A stretch of 48,631 nucleotides of DNA from a virus: IMG/VR virus record IMGVR_UViG_3300025840_002122, positions 1 to 48,631 of that record. One strand, written 5' to 3'. Each line of letters opens with the position of its first letter. Position 1 is the stretch's first letter. The notes beneath the pieces are model-generated. The model ran no database searches and was not told the origin of the DNA. It was given only the letters and a program-made list of their open reading frames with translations. This document shows positions 4,009 through 32,635 of the stretch, piece by piece. Position numbers and translations under genes: made by a program.

Positions 4009-7000
4009 ATGGCAGAAGATAACAACATTCCAGCATGGGTAGACCCTGACTACGGATATAATCCTGCTAGCCCACGTAAGCCTAACATGCGTGAGATGAT
4101 GGAGATGATCGCAGGTAAATCTGTGGAAGAAATCTACGCTTCTGGTGAAGACTATAGTGACATAACCCGTTTAGCTTCTGATTTATTGTATGGTAGTGTA
4201 GGCTCTAACGAAGATACTCGTGACTTTACTAAGATTACTGAAGTAGCTACTGATCCTGCAACTGGACAGATTGATGCAGATAAGTTTGTAGCTGCTACAC
4301 AAATTGCTACATCACAAATGTATGGTGGTACTACAGTTAAGTATCAATCAGGTGGCTATGAAACAGACGAAGCAGGTAATACTGTAATTGATGATGCGGG
4401 TAATCCTGTAGAGCTACCACCTAGTTTATATATTGTGGGTGGCAATGGTACAATTTTACGTGGTTTGTCTGGTAATGCAGAACAAATGACTAAACAGTTG
4501 ACTACCTTTGGTGTACAAACAACTGATTGGACTGGTGATGCAATGAATGCAATGCAACAGTCTGGAATAGATCAAGATAAACTACAAACTTATTTAAATA
4601 CATTTGGTGAACTTACTAACACATATACTCCTTGGGATAACTACCAAGATATATGGGCAGAGGAAGGTTTAGTTAGTGGTGTTGCACCTATGATAAATAA
4701 CTTTCAGATTGTGTCTGGGCAAACTCTTAGTGGTACAAGTACAGGTACACAAACTACGCAAACAGGTACTAGTGCTACACAAGTAACAGGTGATCAGACA
4801 CAACAACAAACAGGTACAGATACAGATGCTGTGTCTATGGCTGCTAATCAAGCTGTAACTACACCTCAACAACTACCTCAGACTGTATCTTACCAAATGC
4901 CACAAGGTTATCAAGGCTCAGGATTTATGCCTACGTACATGGATCAAACAGGTATGGGTATGCAAACTCTTACAATGTCACCTACGACAGGTACAGGCAT
5001 GATGAATTATCAGCCTACACAAACATATACTATGGGTCAACCTATGATACAAGCACCTCAAGTTACACAACCTCAACAAGCAGAAGTACGCATGTATCGT
5101 AATAATGCGGGTATGACTACTAGTATTACATTTGTAAATGGACAACCACAGACACCAATTCCGTCTGGGTTCTATCCTGTAGATCAACAACCTGCAGGGC
5201 AGATGCCATATCAACCACAGGTTCCTCAAGTGCAAGCACCTACACCACAACCAGTAACACCTTACACACCTCAGTTTAACATGAACCAAGGGGGTATTGT
5301 ACCACCAATCCCTACACCTTCAGGTAATAAGTTTGGTGGATTTAAACCAGAGGCATTGCAACGTATTGCACAGAACCTTGGTTACTCAGGTGACATGGGT
5401 GGCTTTGATCAATACTTGAATGATAATCCAGATAAGAAACAAAAGATGGATAACTACACTACTCGTGCTCGTCAAATGGCAGAGGGTGGTATGGTTAAGA
5501 AGTATGCAAATGGGGGTGACACTACAACTGTAGACATACAACAGTACGATCCTCGTGTACTAAATCAACAGTATATTCCACAACAACCTGACTTAACAGG
5601 CTTAGATTTACCACAAGTACAAGCACAGTTAGCTAAAACACCAGGGTTACCTACTGGTGCAACTGTAGTTCCAACTGGTACTCAGCTAACTGCAGGTCAA
5701 CTTGTATCACCTTACTCAGGTCAAGTAGCAGGATCACTAGCACTACCTACTGCACTAGCTGCAACTCAACAAGCTATGATGCCTATGACAGGACAGGCAG
5801 CTTTGATGTCACCAGTAGAAGCTGCAGGTGCTGTTGGTGCAACTGTAGATCAAACACAGGCGGCACAGTTACAGCAAATTGCAGGTATTACTGCAGCACA
5901 ACAGCAAGGTACATCTGTAGCTAATGTAGAAGCTGCACAGGGTACAGGTATCTTGATGGATAATCCTGTACAACGCCAGATACAGAATGGTGAACTTATT
6001 TCTGGTGCAGCTAATGCACAAACTGCTGCTGCATTTAACGAAGAGATACAAGCCGCAACTGCTACACCTACTAAACAAGCTACTGTACAAGGTCAGCTAG
6101 AAACATTAATGGCTCAGTTTGAAGGCGGTGAAACACCTGCATGGGCAGCAGGGTCAATGCGTAATGCAATGGCTACATTGTCTGCACGTGGGTTGGGAGC
6201 ATCTAGCTTGGCAGGTCAAGCTGTAATCCAAGCTGCTATGGAATCTGCATTGCCTATTGCCCAGATGGATGCACAGGTAACTGCACAGTTTGAACAACAG
6301 AACTTGTCTAATCGTCAGCAACGTGCTATACTTGCTGCACAACAACGTGCAACATTTATGGGCATGGAATTTGACCAAGCATTCCAAGCTCGTGTAGCTA
6401 ACGCAGCTAAGGTTAGTGATGTTGCAAACATGAACTTTACTGCTGAACAACAAGTAGCATTAGAGAACTCACGTATTGCAAATACAATGAACCTAAACAA
6501 TCTGGCTAACTCACAGGCTGTAGTTATGGCAGAGGCAGCGGCACTAGCCAACATGGATATGGCTAACCTTAGCAATCGTCAACAAGCTGCTGTACAGAAT
6601 GCTCAGAACTTCTTGCAAGCTGATCTTAGCAACTTGTCTAATCAACAACAGACAGAATTGTTTAAGGCACAACAACGTGTTCAGTCACTGTTCACTGACC
6701 AAGCTGCACTTAATGCTGCACAGCAGTTTAATGCTACGTCACAAAACCAAGTTGATCAGTTCTTTGCAAGCTTACAGAGTAACACTGCACAGTTCAATGC
6801 TGCACAATCTAATGCACAGGCTCAGTTTAATGCAGGTCAGGTCAATGTTATTGAACGATTTAATGCAGAGATTAACAACCAACGTGATCAGTTCAATGCA
6901 CAGAACCGTTTGATTATTGATCAGTCAAATGCTCAGTGGCGTAGAGAGATTGCTACAGCAGATACAGCAGCGGTTAACCGTGCTAACGAGATTAATGCTC

Positions 7001-17679: not shown

Positions 17680-18531
17680 TTAATCCTCTATGTATGCCAC
17701 CGTCTTGGGGTCTTTTGCTTTACTCATACGTGATGGTTCTTCAACCATCGTGGGCCAACACTCGTACCTGAAATCACAGAAACGACAGTTGTCATTTAGT
17801 ACCTTATTCCCTGTGGGCTTACCCCGAAAGAACTCAGGCACTGGACTGAAGCAACGTTTGAACTCATTGTTGTTCACCGTTTCAACAGTTGACTTGATTT
17901 TATCAAGTTCTTTATCAAGGTCAAGTCCATCGGCAGGTACATATTTAAAGTCACCGTTGCCTTTGTTCACGACCCACCATCCACCTACACGTTTGCCAGA
18001 TGCTTTGGCATAACCTGCAAGCTGCCCTACATATCCGAAGCCATCACCCTTGGCTAGTGTGCCAAATGAATCAAACTTGTTTTGGTAGGACCAAGGTGAT
18101 GCTGACTTCACGTCATCAACAGCACCATCTATGACAAGATCATAAGAGCCAGAAACCCTAGTACCATTAGTATCTCCCACTTCAAGGCTAACTTTATCAG
18201 TGTCTTCAAACTCCACGTTAGCAGCTTTAAGCAACCCTTTAAAAACAGCCTCAACAATATCTCCTATCATCATGTTCATTACGAATGTGCTCGGCTTTGG
18301 TAGAGCCTTGTCGGGATGGTTCTTTTGAAACCACAGTTGACAAGTAGGACGCCCAATGTTGGACATCCTAAGTGTGAACTCATCCCGTGACTTACCGCTG
18401 CCGAACTGACGAAGTACTGCATCAGCAACCTCTGCTCCAATATCTTTAGCCTGTTCCTCAGTGAACGTACTCTTTCCATTGGCAGCATCAGTCATAAACT
18501 GGTGCAGCTTTAGTTCAGCAGGGTGGTTCAT
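17680..18531 (-). CDS. Cas4/RecB-like PD-(D/E)XK exonuclease with Fe-S-type cysteines
   Basis: 283 residues. The nuclease core is visible: D131 in SGSYDLVIDG, then D140-V-K142 in AVDDVKSA, and a QLAGY helix (Q170, Y174) as in RecB-family nucleases. One cysteine (C64, PTCQLW) lies near the N terminus and three more (C249, C252, C258 in NCRFCDFRYEC) near the C terminus, the arrangement that holds a 4Fe-4S cluster in Cas4 and AddB. It probably resects DNA ends for phage recombination. It overlaps the SSB-like gene by a single base. Confidence 0.87.
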   Translation of the reverse strand: MNHPAELKLHQFMTDAANGKSTFTEEQAKDIGAEVADAVLRQFGSGKSRDEFTLRMSNIGRPTCQLWFQKNHPDKALPKPSTFVMNMMIGDIVEAVFKGLLKAANVEFEDTDKVSLEVGDTNGTRVSGSYDLVIDGAVDDVKSASPWSYQNKFDSFGTLAKGDGFGYVGQLAGYAKASGKRVGGWWVVNKGNGDFKYVPADGLDLDKELDKIKSTVETVNNNEFKRCFSPVPEFFRGKPTGNKVLNDNCRFCDFRYECWPTMVEEPSRMSKAKDPKTVAYIED

Positions 18532-24813: not shown

Positions 24814-25934
24814 TATGTATCACTTTCTGTGTTGTTCGTTTCACTCAAGCATACAGACATGTCTCGTTGTGTCAAGGCATTATTTGCACTTTCGTAAGTA
24901 TGCTTCATGTATGGTTTCACAGATGCAACATGAGTATGCCCTGTCACTGCCATGATTTGAGGCAAAGGTACACCCTTATCAACCATCTGTGTTACACCAG
25001 TACGACGAATGTCCATCAGACGTAGCTCATCAGGTAGCTTTGCTAGTCTCATGATGTTCCGTCCAACCTTGGACAGTCTCTCCATAGCATAGGGTTGGAA
25101 CCTACCGTTACGTGGTTGTGGGTGTGGTGCAACCCATTCCTGAAAACCAAAGTCAGCTTTCTGCTCTAGCAGCATGGCATTCAGGTTGTCACTGATAGGT
25201 AGGAACACCTCTGACCTACGCTTGCTTTGCTCCAACGTTAGTTGTTGCTTCTTCAGGTCAAGGTTATCCCAACGCAGCATACGCATGTCACCCAATCTCT
25301 GGCACCACTCGTATGCCATGTGTACAATCAGTCCAATGTTACGGTACTGAAAGTCGCTATATGCTACGTCAAGAAATTTATTCACCTCACCATGTGTCCA
25401 TATAACTTTACGTTGACGTTGTTGTTTACGTTTAATCTTGGCAAACGGATTTTGCTCTGCATGTTCCATTTGTATGGCGTAGTTGTACACTCTACTCGCA
25501 CACGTTGCCGCATGGTTAGCAAAGCTGATCCCACGTTCAACCCATTTCTCATATGCTTGCTTTGCAACTTTAGGTGTAACCTCTCTGTACTTACGGCACC
25601 CAATTGTTTGGTGTACCACTGTCAAGAAATACCTGTAATCAACCTTGGTTGAGTCACGTAACATCTTGAAATCATTAGATAAATAATAAAAGTTGATAAG
25701 GTCAGTGACCTTGCTGCTTGGCTTCAGCTTCACAACTTTAGCTTGTTCTTCACGGTATGCGTCAATGTCTCTGTTGTACTCACGTGCTATCTGTCTTGCA
25801 ACTTTTGGATCGTCACCTAGTTCTTCACGTTCTACTACTCCCTCATTCACCAATGCTTGCGGTGGATTGAAACGGTATGAGATGTCACCCGAAGGTGACA
25901 CTCGCTGTTGTACATATCGTGGTAAGGTTCTCAT
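24813..25934 (-). CDS. Tyrosine recombinase / integrase
   Basis: About 373 residues from the ATG at 25934, chosen for the GGGAG site 5-6 bases upstream and the ATGA overlap with the preceding small gene. Catalytic elements: arginine in CQRLGDMRMLRW, lysine in QSKRRSEVFLPI, arginine in MDIRRTG, histidine in VTGHTHVA and tyrosine in VKPYMKHT. The box II HxxR motif reads MDIR, so the usual histidine is replaced. The N-terminal part looks like a core-binding and arm-binding region. Site-specific integration, and hence a temperate option, is inferred. No attP or matching tRNA fragment was found nearby. Confidence 0.92.
   Translation of the reverse strand: MRTLPRYVQQRVSPSGDISYRFNPPQALVNEGVVEREELGDDPKVARQIAREYNRDIDAYREEQAKVVKLKPSSKVTDLINFYYLSNDFKMLRDSTKVDYRYFLTVVHQTIGCRKYREVTPKVAKQAYEKWVERGISFANHAATCASRVYNYAIQMEHAEQNPFAKIKRKQQRQRKVIWTHGEVNKFLDVAYSDFQYRNIGLIVHMAYEWCQRLGDMRMLRWDNLDLKKQQLTLEQSKRRSEVFLPISDNLNAMLLEQKADFGFQEWVAPHPQPRNGRFQPYAMERLSKVGRNIMRLAKLPDELRLMDIRRTGVTQMVDKGVPLPQIMAVTGHTHVASVKPYMKHTYESANNALTQRDMSVCLSETNNTESDT
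24848..24875 (-). promoter_or_regulatory. Candidate promoter inside the integrase gene, facing primase
   Basis: Minus strand TTGACA (24870-24875), 16-base spacer, TATGCT (24848-24853). The -35 is perfect and the -10 moderate. Predicted start is about 28 bases before the primase ATG. It would let replication genes be made without integrase, but it lies in coding sequence and could be chance. Confidence 0.35.
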
Positions 25935-29706: not shown

Positions 29707-29809
29707 TTGTTTGCTCCTTCACATACTTCATTGCGATACGTTTGTTATGTGTGATGATGACCACACGATCATGATCATCATACACAACCCATTTCTTTTT
29801 ACGCTGCAT
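29696..29809 (-). CDS. Small basic protein
   Basis: 37 residues (MQRKKKWVVYDDHDRVVIIT at the N terminus, then a lysine-rich helix). It overlaps both neighbours by about 11 bases and closes the only gap in this part of the operon. The ribosome binding site is weak (GTGAG), so translation may depend on coupling to the gene upstream. Confidence 0.55.
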   Translation of the reverse strand: MQRKKKWVVYDDHDRVVIITHNKRIAMKYVKEQTNAS

Positions 29810-30143
29810 TAATCTCACTTAGTTTAGCCTCAACTTTTTTCAGCTTCATACGCAACTCACGGCGTTCCTGCTTTAGTAAAGATGAACCATCTTTCGTGTA
29901 ACGTGCTTTGATCATGCCAATCTCTTTCAGGATACGGCAACGATACTGCACACGGTGTAGGTATTCATTCAGATCAGATGCAATCTGTTTCTGTGTTTTG
30001 GTAGCCCAATGTTTCACAATGTAATCATCCATCGGCACATAGTTGTATGTGTATGACACACACTTTTTCATGTGGAATGTATGCTCAACATACAATTGTG
30101 GTTGAGTTGAACGGACGGATTTGAAAACGAATGTATTTGTCAT
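29799..30143 (-). CDS. Probable helix-turn-helix protein
   Basis: 114 residues. The segment KTQKQIASDLNEYLHRVQYR followed by CRILKEIGMIKAR looks like a helix-turn-helix (wedge-type recognition helix after a QIA start), and the C-terminal 35 residues form a basic coiled coil. It could be a DNA-binding regulator of this phage. The four palindromic sites between 30.2 and 32.6 kb are the obvious candidates for its target, but nothing in the sequence proves the link. Confidence 0.55.
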   Translation of the reverse strand: MTNTFVFKSVRSTQPQLYVEHTFHMKKCVSYTYNYVPMDDYIVKHWATKTQKQIASDLNEYLHRVQYRCRILKEIGMIKARYTKDGSSLLKQERRELRMKLKKVEAKLSEINAA

Positions 30144-30164: not shown

Positions 30165-30302
30165 TTAGCTTGCTAGTTTACGTAGTTGTGATTTTGTCTT
30201 ACGTGCCTGTTGGCGGTCACGTTTCCAATCATCACGTTTAGGTTTCTGTCCAACGTTGGACACTTTGGAAAACTTAATAAAGTTTTTCATTTCGTAACGC
30301 AT
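30165..30302 (-). CDS. Small basic protein containing palindrome copy 1
   Basis: 45 residues, strongly basic (MRYEMKNFIKFSKVSNVGQK, then a K/R/Q-rich helix). GGAG lies 7 bases before the ATG. The perfect 16-bp palindrome TGTCCAACGTTGGACA lies inside the gene and encodes SNVGQ. The start overlaps the end of the next upstream gene by 29 bases in another frame. Confidence 0.65.
   Translation of the reverse strand: MRYEMKNFIKFSKVSNVGQKPKRDDWKRDRQQARKTKSQLRKLAS
30247..30262. promoter_or_regulatory. Palindromic operator-like site, copy 1
   Basis: TGTCCAACGTTGGACA is a perfect 16-bp palindrome. It lies inside the small gene at 30165-30302. The core GTCCAACGTTGGAC recurs at three other positions in the next 2.3 kb. 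Confidence 0.65.
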
Positions 30303-30426
30303 TTTGTTTCTCCTTCTTACTGAGTTTGCGTTTGTTGCCCTTCTTGGGCGGCACTACCTGTGGGCTTTTGCGCTGTTGAAGCAAAGCTTTTGCCACAGGG
30401 TTCACAATTCCCACAGGTTTTTTCAT
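30274..30426 (-). CDS. Small basic proline/lysine-rich protein
   Basis: 50 residues: MKKPVGIVNPVAKALLQQRK, then SPQVVPPKKGNKRKLSKKEK. The NPVAKALxxxRxSPxVVPxKK pattern is found in short proteins of many marine phages as I recall, without a known role. High lysine content suggests nucleic-acid binding. AGAGG precedes the ATG by nine bases. Confidence 0.65.
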   Translation of the reverse strand: MKKPVGIVNPVAKALLQQRKSPQVVPPKKGNKRKLSKKEKQNALRNEKLY

Positions 30427-30427
30427 G

Positions 30428-30601
30428 TCACAATTCCTCTGTCACTACACGAAATGTGTAGCCTAGTTGTTTAATTAAACTTACATCACGATCAGTCAAC
30501 GTAGTTGTACCTGCAATCTCAGCAAGTGTTCGTGATGTGCTACACTTAGGATACACTCGACGTGTACCGTAAGACGTTTCGATTGATACTAACAATTCCA
30601 T
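30428..30601 (-). CDS. Small hypothetical protein
   Basis: 57 residues, MELLVSIETSYGTRRVYPKC at the N terminus. AGGAG lies 7 bases before the ATG and the reading frame fills the gap up to the next gene. A strand-rich start and a TLTDRDVSLIKQLGY helix suggest a small folded protein. No family recognised. Confidence 0.65.
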   Translation of the reverse strand: MELLVSIETSYGTRRVYPKCSTSRTLAEIAGTTTLTDRDVSLIKQLGYTFRVVTEEL

Positions 30602-30603
30602 TG

Positions 30604-31284
30604 TTATACTCCTTGTGCTACTGTGTCAGCTTTACGTTTACTGCTACCATGTGCAGGAAACCCAATGATTGCATCACGCTGTTTTGCACACAGTTGGCAT
30701 GTAGAGCATGACACATCATCACGGATTGTGGCAGGACATACGACCACTTTGCGACCTTTAGGTGTCACAGTGTTAGTCGTTTGTGCCTCTGGCAGTACTG
30801 TCGCCACTGGCCCAATGCCAAGGTCATACAATGCATCTGCGTGTTTGACATTGTTGGCAGATAGATTGACGACAAAGCCTTTGTCATTCATACGTTTGAC
30901 TACACGAGCATTATGCTTGTCAGTCAATACGGGATAGTGAGTGTAAGTGAAACCACGTTTGCCAGTGTTAGCATCGGCAAGCTGATCGTTGGCATCGGCA
31001 TCCAAACGTTTACCATCACCTGCCAAATCACCTGCTTGGTTGTGTCTCCACAACTGACCATCCTTGAAGGATGCCACAGTGTTGATGAATGTGTCCCATG
31101 CATCGCCACGTTCACCACTGGTCACTTTAGCCCAATGCATTGCCAATGGCCCACCATCTGCATAGCAGCCATTTTTCTTGAACTCACATTCATCAGGGCA
31201 TGTAGCAGCAGATGTAGTTGTGACAGGAATAGGGCCAACCTTACGGTTACCTGATTTAGGGGTAGTGTGTACTGTGTAAGTCAT
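30604..31284 (-). CDS. Cysteine-rich conserved phage protein
   Basis: 226 residues. Two cysteine clusters stand out: TCPDECEFKKNGCYADGGPL near residue 30, and CPATIRDDVSCSTCQLCAKQ near residue 185. Seven or more cysteines could bind zinc or an iron-sulfur cluster. Similar proteins occur in phages of alphaproteobacteria (I believe InterPro calls the family DUF7227, not verified here); no function is known. It is the first gene after a promoter candidate and operator-like palindrome (31347-31375, 31304-31317), so it is probably made early. Confidence 0.75.
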   Translation of the reverse strand: MTYTVHTTPKSGNRKVGPIPVTTTSAATCPDECEFKKNGCYADGGPLAMHWAKVTSGERGDAWDTFINTVASFKDGQLWRHNQAGDLAGDGKRLDADANDQLADANTGKRGFTYTHYPVLTDKHNARVVKRMNDKGFVVNLSANNVKHADALYDLGIGPVATVLPEAQTTNTVTPKGRKVVVCPATIRDDVSCSTCQLCAKQRDAIIGFPAHGSSKRKADTVAQGV

Positions 31285-31303
31285 TTGCTTACTCCGTAAA
31301 AGT

Positions 31304-31317
31304 GTCCAACGTTGGAC
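31304..31317. promoter_or_regulatory. Palindromic operator-like site, copy 2
   Basis: GTCCAACGTTGGAC, perfect 14-bp palindrome, lies between the promoter candidate at 31347-31375 and the ATG at 31284. It would be about 23 to 36 bases into the transcript, a position from which a bound protein could block elongation or initiation. Confidence 0.7.
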
Positions 31318-31346
31318 GGTTTCAGTTAGTGTTTATGTCTATACAT

Positions 31347-31375
31347 GTTATATAACACTTTCACTAAAGTTTCAA
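31347..31375 (-). promoter_or_regulatory. Leftward promoter for the cysteine-rich gene
   Basis: Minus strand TTGAAA (31370-31375), 17-base spacer, TATAAC (31347-31352). Both boxes match five of six consensus bases. The promoter lies in the arms and loop of an AT-rich inverted repeat (31347-31388), GTTATATAACACTT against AAGTGTTTATATAAC. Confidence 0.65.
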
Positions 31376-31524
31376 GTGTTTATATAACTGTAAGACAATA
31401 AGGTAGGATCATTCGGTTCTTTCCATCCACTGTCATAAGACAGCGACTTTTCATTAGGCGTTTTAACATTAGCCAACACTTTGGCTATCTCAAGTTTTTG
31501 CTTTAGCAGTTCAGCTTTCGTCAT
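31372..31524 (-). CDS. Small hypothetical protein
   Basis: 50 residues from the ATG at 31524 that overlaps the preceding stop as TAATG. The sequence MTKAELLKQKLEIAKVLANV is helical, followed by a polar, serine- and tyrosine-rich end. No known family. Its 3' end overlaps the promoter for the next gene, so this may be the end of the first leftward transcription unit. Confidence 0.6.
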   Translation of the reverse strand: MTKAELLKQKLEIAKVLANVKTPNEKSLSYDSGWKEPNDPTLLSYSYINT

Positions 31525-31688
31525 TAGTCTGCCGCCCAGATAGATAGCAAGCAGACACCGATGTAAGGTATGCCAATCAGCAGCCAATCAGGTGTCAGTA
31601 TGCCTTGTGATACAAATATCACAGTGGCAGCGAATACAATGCTTGTCAGAGCCAAGCACAGAACAGTGAGAAACTTTACGAAATACAT
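31524..31688 (-). CDS. Small two-span membrane protein
   Basis: 54 residues from the ATG at 31688, chosen because GGAG lies 7 bases upstream. Two hydrophobic segments (VKFLTVLCLALTSIVFAATV and LLIGIPYIGVCLLSIW) are separated by a short turn with D and P. It could be a holin, an entry-exclusion factor or another inner-membrane protein. Its early position argues against a late lysis role. Confidence 0.65.
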   Translation of the reverse strand: MYFVKFLTVLCLALTSIVFAATVIFVSQGILTPDWLLIGIPYIGVCLLSIWAAD

Positions 31689-31725
31689 ATTAAATCTCCG
31701 ATTTACAGTTGAGTGTAAAGCCAGC

Positions 31726-32325
31726 TTACGCTGACTTCTCTTGTTTTGCAATAGCAGATATAAGGTCATCTACGATGGTTTCAAGGTCAAGGCCGTTCAA
31801 CTCACACTGTTTCAAAATGGTTTGTACCATTTTTGTACGAGTGATCGGGCCAACAGAAACTTTAGTTTCAGACTGTTCCACAAGCTTTGCTTGTTTAGGT
31901 TCATCAGACTGTCCAACGTTGGACGGTTCAGCTTTAGCTGTAGGTTCGTCTGCTTTAGCAGCCTTACGCATAGCAGCTTGTAAAGCTGTAAGGGATGTGA
32001 AGCCTTTCTTTGAGGCTTTGATGAACTCCACACACTCAGCTTGGTTCTCATAGAACCATAGAGCTTCGGCACGACGACGACGATCAATGTTGGCAATGCC
32101 ATGTGTCCGAAGGACATGAGTAGGGATTTGACCACTGTCATGAGCACTCTGTGCTTTCAGTGTGGACAGCAGCTTGCCTAGTCGAGTGTCAAAGCCATTG
32201 GCTTTAGTAGACTGTTTCACACTGTTCAGTGTGCTCCACATTTTGCCTAGGGCTTTGCCCTCTTTCACAAGAGCATCCAAAGTTGTTCCAACTTGGTTTG
32301 TTGCTTTGTTTGCTGATTTTGCCAT
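31726..32325 (-). CDS. First gene of leftward arm, hypothetical
   Basis: 199 residues, basic N-terminal half (STLNSVKQSTKANGFDTRLG), a central RRRRAEALWFYENQAECVEF and a C-terminal helix ending in KQEKSA. Residues about 118-150 are A/K/P/S/E-rich and probably a flexible linker. No known domain. As the first gene behind the leftward promoter and structured leader it is likely the earliest product. It contains operator-like palindrome copy 3. Confidence 0.65.
   Translation of the reverse strand: MAKSANKATNQVGTTLDALVKEGKALGKMWSTLNSVKQSTKANGFDTRLGKLLSTLKAQSAHDSGQIPTHVLRTHGIANIDRRRRAEALWFYENQAECVEFIKASKKGFTSLTALQAAMRKAAKADEPTAKAEPSNVGQSDEPKQAKLVEQSETKVSVGPITRTKMVQTILKQCELNGLDLETIVDDLISAIAKQEKSA
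31911..31924. promoter_or_regulatory. Palindromic operator-like site, copy 3
   Basis: GTCCAACGTTGGAC lies inside the 199-residue gene. With flanks it reads ACTGTCCAACGTTGGACGGT, a 20-bp dyad with only one mismatched pair. The coding frame again gives SNVGQ. Confidence 0.65.
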
Positions 32326-32338
32326 GATACTATTCCTT

Positions 32339-32429
32339 ACTAACTTATGTTACACTTAAGAGAGTTTATATATCTCTCTCACCCTAAAGGGAGAGATATT
32401 AAACTATCTGTGTAACTGTATAAGTTAGT
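32339..32429. repeat. Long nested inverted repeat in leftward leader
   Basis: Outer arms ACTAACTTATGTTACAC (32339-32355) and GTGTAACTGTATAAGTTAGT (32410-32429) pair over 17 bases with one three-base bulge. Inner arms GTTTATATATCTCTC (32364-32378) and GAGAGATATTAAAC (32391-32404) pair with one bulge. The element ends 14 bases before the first leftward ATG, so it would be a hairpin in the 5' leader. Confidence 0.75.
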
Positions 32430-32441
32430 AGTAGTAAGAGC

Positions 32442-32526
32442 CGAGTTTCCCGTGTGATCCTCTGCCCCTGCCGTTTCACGTGCGGTTGCAGGTATCTTCG
32501 ATACCGAAACTGGTGTGCGAAACTCG
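32442..32526. other. Structured RNA-like element
   Basis: CGAGTTTC (32442-32449) and GAAACTCG (32519-32526) form an 8-bp closing stem. Inside, CCGTTTC (32471-32477) pairs with GAAAC-T-GG (32506-32513), and GGTATC/GATACC (32491-32505) forms a perfect hairpin stacked next to it. GTTTC and GAAAC each occur twice, so alternative pairings are possible. Confidence 0.55.
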
Positions 32527-32549
32527 TGTGCGTATGCGAGGCAAACACT

Positions 32550-32563
32550 GTCCAATGTTGGAC
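32550..32563. promoter_or_regulatory. Palindromic operator-like site, copy 4
   Basis: GTCCAATGTTGGAC differs from the other copies at one central base. The flanks again give ACTGTCCAA..TTGGACGGT. It lies about 40 bases downstream of the leftward -10 box. Confidence 0.65.
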
Positions 32564-32567
32564 GGTT

Positions 32568-32579
32568 TTGTGATCACAA
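32568..32579. promoter_or_regulatory. TTGTGATCACAA palindrome, copy 1
   Basis: Perfect 12-bp palindrome. The core TGTGATCACA returns at 32643-32652, 74 bases away, with the leftward promoter candidate between them. Confidence 0.5.
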
Positions 32580-32607
32580 CAATAGCCTCACTACCCTATA
32601 GGGGTAG

Positions 32608-32635
32608 GGTATAAAAATGTAATCGGCAGATGCAA
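32608..32635 (-). promoter_or_regulatory. Leftward arm promoter candidate
   Basis: Minus strand TTGCAT (32630-32635), 16-base spacer, TATACC (32608-32613). Predicted start near 32600, giving a leader of about 275 bases. A CTACCC/GGGTAG hairpin (32591-32607) overlaps the start point. Confidence 0.5.

Follow-up and report, generated by a model that had tools for sequence, protein, structure and literature searches.

A palindrome array in HMO-2011-type ocean phages and gp01, a candidate protein for reading it

The virus record IMGVR_UViG_3300025840_002122 of IMG/VR, 48,631 bases that were analysed at full length and are here called the window, holds along its leftward arm a 14-bp palindrome that occurs three times exactly as GTCCAACGTTGGAC and once, with one change, as GTCCAATGTTGGAC (Table 1). 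Such palindromes form an array that is conserved in related phages of an abundant kind of ocean bacteriophage, keeps company with the gene of one early protein, gp01, and differs between phages at a half-site base that covaries with gp01 residues 113 and 121. Comparison of the sequences supports gp01 as the best candidate binder of the palindromes, which are probably its DNA operators, sites at which gp01 would dimerise and repress.

The array in the window and its relatives

The initial annotation of the window had described four copies, and these stand as described: three are exact, the fourth has one change, and copies 2 to 4 share a downstream GG-T-T. The 20-bp dyad into which copy 3 was said to extend is present, its symmetry broken by one mismatched pair (T against G) adjoining the core. 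Copy 4 lies in the leader of the arm, as one copy was said to do, and copy 2 lies in the leader of a gene for a DUF7227 protein; that copies 1 and 3 fall within reading frames, those of a 45-residue open reading frame (ORF) and of gp01, had gone unmentioned, and both are read in the frame that yields SNVGQ. A search of the whole window for the palindrome with at most one mismatch returned five matches, whereas 100 dinucleotide-preserving shuffles averaged 0.01 and never exceeded 1. The annotation, which had noticed no copy elsewhere, had thus overlooked one, GTCCAACCTTGGAC, with one mismatch, at a place that in Roseobacter phage CRP-1 falls within the annotated integrase gene. An Rfam scan of the window gave no match.

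Among annotated phage records the closest to the early region was that of CRP-1, 51% of a 10-kb query aligning to it at 88.8% identity; for CRP-345, 30% of the same query aligned at 81.0%. CRP-1, from whose gene the name gp01 was taken, is an HMO-2011-type phage according to excerpts of PMC6918029. Relatives were collected via gp01 and DUF7227, and are given L numbers where they must be told apart. Conservation of the annotated sites in these phages, the check for which the initial annotation had called, is strong: among the matches listed, the core recurs at matching places, namely in the arm leader, inside gp01, in the DUF7227 leader and inside the 45-residue ORF, and extra palindromes precede other small genes. 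Most relatives have 3-10 copies, many of them directly 5' of a Shine-Dalgarno (SD) sequence.

An inverted repeat with 6-bp arms that recurs at least three times was present in 56 of 58 gp01-bearing stretches, the window included, compared with 6 of the 65 stretches in which no gp01 was called and none of 123 Markov-randomised ones; several stretches in this count come from one contig, and 49 distinct gp01 proteins are represented. The gp01-bearing exceptions are L035, with two copies before its DNA ends, and L063, with five copies of a version with 5-bp arms. Six stretches had the array and no called gp01 (L008, L054, L070, L072, L096 and L117), of which L008 is the rest of CRP-345, with gp01 outside the piece, and L054 belongs to a contig that begins in front of DUF7227. 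In a further three of the 65 (L031, L032 and L036) a truncated gp01 is present that was passed over in ORF calling. A search in the reverse direction, with the GTCCAA pattern, matched 106 stretches, of which 98 were newly cut; gp01 was found in 76 of the 98 and, counting contigs new to the set, in 20 of 38. The 22 stretches without it comprise 19 with less than 1 kb of sequence upstream of their first site, 2 that could not be oriented, and L293, with 1.2 kb that lack gp01. HMO-2011 itself encodes a gp01 homolog, gp74 (E 7e-47), and has five copies of GTCCG-N4-CGGAC, at 53879, 54808, 61, 1262 and 1927. No repeated palindrome with 6-bp arms was found within the first 12 kb of CRP-2 and CRP-603, the part searched.

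Palindrome classes and the residues of gp01

Across phages the palindromes fall into the classes GTCCAA-NN-TTGGAC, GTCCGA-NN-TCGGAC, GTCCG-N4-CGGAC and GCTCTA-NN-TAGAGC, and within one genome nearly all copies agree in class, the exceptions being one-base variants, e.g., GTCCAACGTTGGTC within gp01 of L028, L029 and L033. In GTCCGA phages the copies in gp01 and in the 45-residue ORF are likewise of the GTCCGA type, and in-gene copies therefore follow class. The copy in the integrase gene does not: in L015, whose operators are GTCCGA..TCGGAC, it stays GTCCAAGGTTGGAC, the one GTCCAA-class site of that phage, and it was dropped as an operator for that reason. At what context suggests is the equivalent place in L046, also of the GTCCGA class, the sequence is GTCTAAGGTTGGAC, and from these two phages the copy is probably a coding coincidence. 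A copy with two mismatches at 18351 was also rejected; at what is presumed, from matching by eye rather than alignment, to be the same place, the half-site is broken in CRP-1 and intact in CRP-345. One stretch, L226, combines five GTCCAA-class sites with one GTCCGA-class site, possibly a phage in mid-switch or possibly a chance site.

The phages of the GTCCAA (AA) and GTCCGA (GA) classes were compared column by column, L063, L064, L068, L047 and L048 being excluded from the counts. In the gp01 alignment of 165 columns, residue 121 is K, Q, D or E in 34 of 34 AA phages and A or I in 10 of 10 GA phages, and residue 113 is T in 33 of 34 AA phages (the exception, L027, has S) and S in 10 of 10 GA phages. 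The only other gp01 column to separate the classes perfectly, 136, holds a residue encoded by the palindrome itself. No column does so in DUF7227 (0 of 225), the 45-residue ORF (0 of 41) or an L5 gp82-like protein (0 of 121), and in a helix-turn-helix (HTH)-like protein encoded nearby 1 of 109 does, with only 3 GA rows in the comparison.

A gp01 tree from which helix 112-125 and the linker were omitted contains 7 class changes, with long branches whose placement is uncertain, and in its four independent pairs on well-supported branches residue 121 agrees with class in 4 of 4 and residue 113 in 3 of 4. The gp01 proteins of L024 and L027 are 90% identical and differ in class, and their differences in helix 112-125 are at 117, 120 and 121; by helical spacing, 113, 117, 120 and 121 would lie on one face of the helix. 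Of another 39 distinct gp01 proteins, 37 could be assigned to a class (36 GTCCAA and 1 GTCCGA), the remaining two being that of HMO-2011 and a truncated one; residue 113 fits in 37 of 37 and residue 121 in 36 of 37. Since this set holds a single GTCCGA protein, it tested the common class well and the rare class hardly. From these alignments, site and corresponding gp01 residues appear to have changed together several times among related phages.

The model of gp01 has helices within residues 14-125, a low-confidence linker at 127-158 and a C-terminal helical hairpin at 163-198. No family hit below E 0.01 was obtained for gp01 in Pfam or PHROGs, and comparison with PDB sequences gave nothing usable. 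With no known fold or family recognised, the case for DNA binding is made by covariation and not by homology.

Operators, hairpins or host sites

Most leader copies of the GTCCAA class read AAACC-GTCCAANNTTGGAC-ACTTT, followed by the SD sequence and ATG. There were 126 leader sites in 43 of the 44 records scanned, and in 91 of them the ATG begins 19-23 nt after the site. In 71 leaders, for which the search had fixed the arms, the two central bases vary (TG 53, CG 11, CA 7), pairing is seen at position -1 in 14% and at -2 in 3%, and both half-sites mostly have A at -3 to -5; at 78 sites outside leaders, the corresponding figures are 29% and 31%. Variable central bases, unpaired -1 and -2 positions in the leaders and AAA in both halves suit a protein dimer on duplex DNA. 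In a promoter scan 42 of the 126 leaders scored above the 95th percentile of random positions, with -10-like boxes 5-82 nt upstream of the palindrome and no fixed promoter geometry around it, so that activation from a fixed spacing is unlikely.

If the palindromes are operators of gp01, the protein would bind, probably as a dimer, with one helical domain on each half-site (approximately AAASY-GTCCAA) and with helix 112-125 reading the inner bases. It would be bound in transcribed leaders just 5' of ribosome-binding sites, and also within gp01 and the 45-residue gene, and there would repress early genes and its own expression, most likely by blocking transcription. The gp01 gene opens the arm and has sites both in front of it, in its leader, and within its coding sequence; the other sites are in leaders and genes. 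Most simply, gp01 may be read as an early repressor that also regulates itself.

Several observations weigh against this interpretation. The gp01 model is moderate (predicted local distance difference test score, pLDDT, of 70.8), the best Pfam hit, DUF1465 (E 0.015), is below its cut-off, a Foldseek search gave no match with E under 1, and the fold matches of a second look appear unrelated, covering mainly residues 7-80 and barely the recognition helix. Recurrent palindromes exist in L070, L072, L096 and L117, in which no gp01 was detected, and the in-gene copy is not universal, having one mismatch in gp01 of L028, L029 and L033 and being absent there in L047, L048, L064 and L068. The 78 sites outside leaders are loose in the right half at -4. 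Residue 113 fails in the AA phage L027, and residue 121 is S in L229, an AA phage of the newer set; L024 and L027 have gp01 differences beyond the helix too, those at 16, 18, 21 and 79, among others, falling in the same half as the helix, and a sign test with four pairs cannot reach 0.05 (p 0.125). Lastly, the tightly kept distance from site to start codon and the presence of inverted repeats around the SD sequence at operator leaders hint at a role at the level of RNA, the sole explanation offered for them being that leaders were copied as cassettes.

That hint can be extended into an alternative in which the palindrome acts as an RNA hairpin (GUCCA-loop-UGGAC) in leaders, bound by gp01 or another factor that controls translation of the gene with the adjoining ribosome-binding site. 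Besides the tight ATG spacing, it would account for the SD-holding repeats, e.g., TTAC-GGA-GTAA, AAAC-GGA-GTTT and AGAAG-GAA-CTTCT, with the SD sequence in the loop or an arm, whose longest stem averages 4.47 in 51 unique operator leaders versus 2.59 at 202 other starts from 12 records, and for a further stem with compensating arms upstream. In an RNA hairpin operator the loop is conserved, and stems can differ among copies through compensating changes. Here, in contrast, it is the would-be loop that varies in sequence, and the stem hardly changes among the copies of one genome and switches as a whole between genomes; the -1 and -2 flanks in leaders are unpaired, class-matched copies lie deep within gp01 and the 45-residue gene, and one of the five HMO-2011 copies has its asymmetric centre reversed (CTGT versus ACAG). 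A hairpin is, on balance, a rather improbable explanation of the array.

The initial annotation had proposed control by a phage repressor, naming the HTH-like protein, or by host quorum sensing. A phage-encoded regulator is well supported, with gp01 and not the HTH-like protein as the supported binder. The gene of the latter adjoins copy 1, its model is helical with an HTH-like order of helices, and it matches a phage transcriptional regulator family weakly (E 0.025). Iterated profile searches detected no homolog of it in nine array-bearing loci (L023, L024, L030, L034, L058, L061, L062, L066 and L068) that hold both of its neighbours, the 45-residue ORF and the L5 gp82-like gene, and it was rejected as a general binder; this, together with the separation of classes by a single column with few GA rows, makes it very unlikely that the palindromes are its operators. 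Host control fares as poorly. A lux box is a dyad of about 20 bp with outer bases CTG...CAG, and the palindrome has a suitable length for a LuxR-type or other host regulator whose sites a phage might exploit, with CTGTCC read in some copies. The flanks lack that layout, the left -1 and -2 bases of the 71 leader sites being mostly CC or CG, the right half GT, and the consensus beyond the core AAA-N-N (AAA at -3 to -5) and not CTG. The class, moreover, changes between close phages along with residues of a phage protein, and the layout recurs with a different sequence in HMO-2011, a phage of a SAR116 host, so that a host regulator is equally hard to credit.

Within the proposal that gp01 represses at these sites, its role may be either to shut off early genes during lytic growth or to confer immunity to related phages. 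Class switching favours immunity, since diverging immunity would be expected to change nearly all copies at once; CRP-1, CRP-345 and HMO-2011 each have an annotated integrase gene, and CRP-3, another HMO-2011-type phage, integrates (excerpts of PMC6918029). Lytic timing is favoured by the lack of a confirmed gp01 relative in bacterial or archaeal genomes and by the fact that, as far as the excerpts go, the authors who described CRP-1 identified no integration sites for it. The scans for host or prophage relatives used peptide patterns across genomes of 84,980 species and matched 133 and 66 stretches, none of which was confirmed, and as such patterns need near-exact peptides, distant relatives can escape them. 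It also counts against immunity that gp01 runs in the same direction as the arm that it would need to keep silent. That gp01 is mainly the immunity repressor of a temperate phage that keeps a prophage silent, with class switches marking changes of immunity group, seems to us unlikely. Somewhat more readily, though still only tentatively, HMO-2011-type ocean phages could be credited with an immunity-like system, in which an early protein of unrecognised fold controls itself and early genes through a genome-specific palindrome array, and in which operator class and reading residues, switching together, would set which phages silence each other.

Known systems and further elements of the leaders

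The array shares features with several known systems. Operators of lambda-type repressors are palindromes read by a phage dimer, switch class between relatives and overlap promoters; the present sites resemble them as dyads with a proposed phage dimer and class switching among relatives, and differ in that their position is tied to the start codon and not to -10/-35-like boxes. In the stoperator system of Cluster A mycobacteriophages, the repressor is a homolog of L5 gp71 and, once bound, stops transcription elongation. Stoperators of L5 and Bxb1, sites of the Rep repressor, are described in excerpts of PMC6550527 and PMC9283540 as 13-bp, asymmetric, mostly in one orientation and bound by a monomer; the phages have similar but distinct site motifs, each repressor prefers its own, site and repressor distances correlate, and repressor autoregulation has been proposed. 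As far as those excerpts go, the array is like stoperators in having many copies of one short site per genome (here 3-10) and phage-specific motifs, and unlike them in its 14-bp palindromes with symmetric outer flanks, in that its 3-10 sites per genome, where complete genomes were checked, lie in the early region, in occurring in Roseobacter and SAR116 phages, and in that gp01 is without a family match. Stoperators work most alike, but being asymmetric and monomer-bound they do not take in the palindrome array as a member; it may be read as comparable to the mycobacteriophage stoperators but palindromic, and with a protein of no recognised family. The start-associated sequences SAS and ESAS of Cluster K mycobacteriophages are, in excerpts of PMC3203893, repeats conserved where translation of some of the genes begins, with inverted repeats immediately 5' of roughly half of them, SAS being a 13-bp asymmetric sequence of the GGGATAGGAGCCC type and ESAS having imperfect 17-bp arms with a spacer, their function being given there as unknown. 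The tie to translation starts is shared with what these excerpts describe; here, unlike there, the palindrome is upstream of the SD sequence, has at most a few central bases, varies in class and is also found inside genes.

The palindromes were not reported in the literature that was searched, and three exact motif strings were absent from open-licence PMC papers; word searches of genome papers on the HMO-2011-type group found none of 'palindrom', 'repressor' and 'promoter'. The finding supplies a concrete candidate regulator, its sites and two specificity positions, which are testable with the isolates CRP-1, CRP-345 and HMO-2011. It also provides a natural record of a regulator and scattered operators that change specificity together, and so bears on the origin of phage immunity groups.

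Table 1. Positions of the palindromes, neighbouring genes and leader elements in the window
Feature	Position	Strand	Remarks
Palindrome copy 1	30248..30261		Within the 45-residue ORF; class-matched (GTCCGA..TCGGAC) in L015, L022, L024 and L045
Palindrome copy 2	31304..31317		Leader of the DUF7227 gene, 19 nt 5' of ATG and immediately 5' of the SD sequence
Palindrome copy 3	31911..31924		Within gp01, where it codes for residues 135-139 (SNVGQ), part of the model's low-confidence linker; class-matched in GTCCGA phages
Palindrome copy 4 (one change)	32550..32563		In the leftward arm's leader, about 225 nt 5' of gp01
gp01	31726..32325	minus	199 residues, first gene of the leftward arm; proposed binder of the palindromes
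DUF7227 gene	30604..31284	minus	Copy 2 in its leader
45-residue ORF	30165..30302	minus	Holds copy 1
HTH-like protein	29799..30143	minus	Rejected as general binder
Fifth palindrome match	25061..25074		Integrase-gene place of CRP-1; judged a coding coincidence and not an operator
Small inverted repeat TTAC-GGA-GTAA	31289..31299	minus	SD core in the loop; between copy 2 and ATG; operator-linked in relatives
Upstream leader inverted repeat	31347..31388	minus	GTTATATAACACTT-GA...GTGA-AAGTGTTATATAAC in related phages; imperfect in the window

Palindromes of other sequence were seen in viral contigs that have DUF7227 and no detected gp01, namely AGCGCA-N8-TGCGCT in L070, AGTATC-N4-GATACT in L096 and GTTAATATTAAC in L117. 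L072 has arrays of GTGGTA-NN-TACCAC in the same layout, and the protein of its first gene (6378-6998) is similar in size to gp01, with no detectable homology to it, and is possibly an unrelated regulator in the same role.

The leaders hold a second conserved element, an inverted repeat mostly 17-32 nt upstream of the palindrome, in which the loop mostly keeps GA...GTGA and the arms change in compensation, from GTTATATAACACTT...AAGTGTTATATAAC to ATATATACTT...AAGTATATAT in HMO-2011. The leader of the arm (32340-32614 in the window, minus strand) contains two more inverted repeats, ACCCTA-CCCC-TATAGGGT upstream of copy 4, in versions that vary among relatives, and ATATCTCTC...GAGAGATAT in front of gp01. 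Within the same leader, 42 bp at 32363-32404 match cyanophage P-SSP2 at 95% in an unannotated place.

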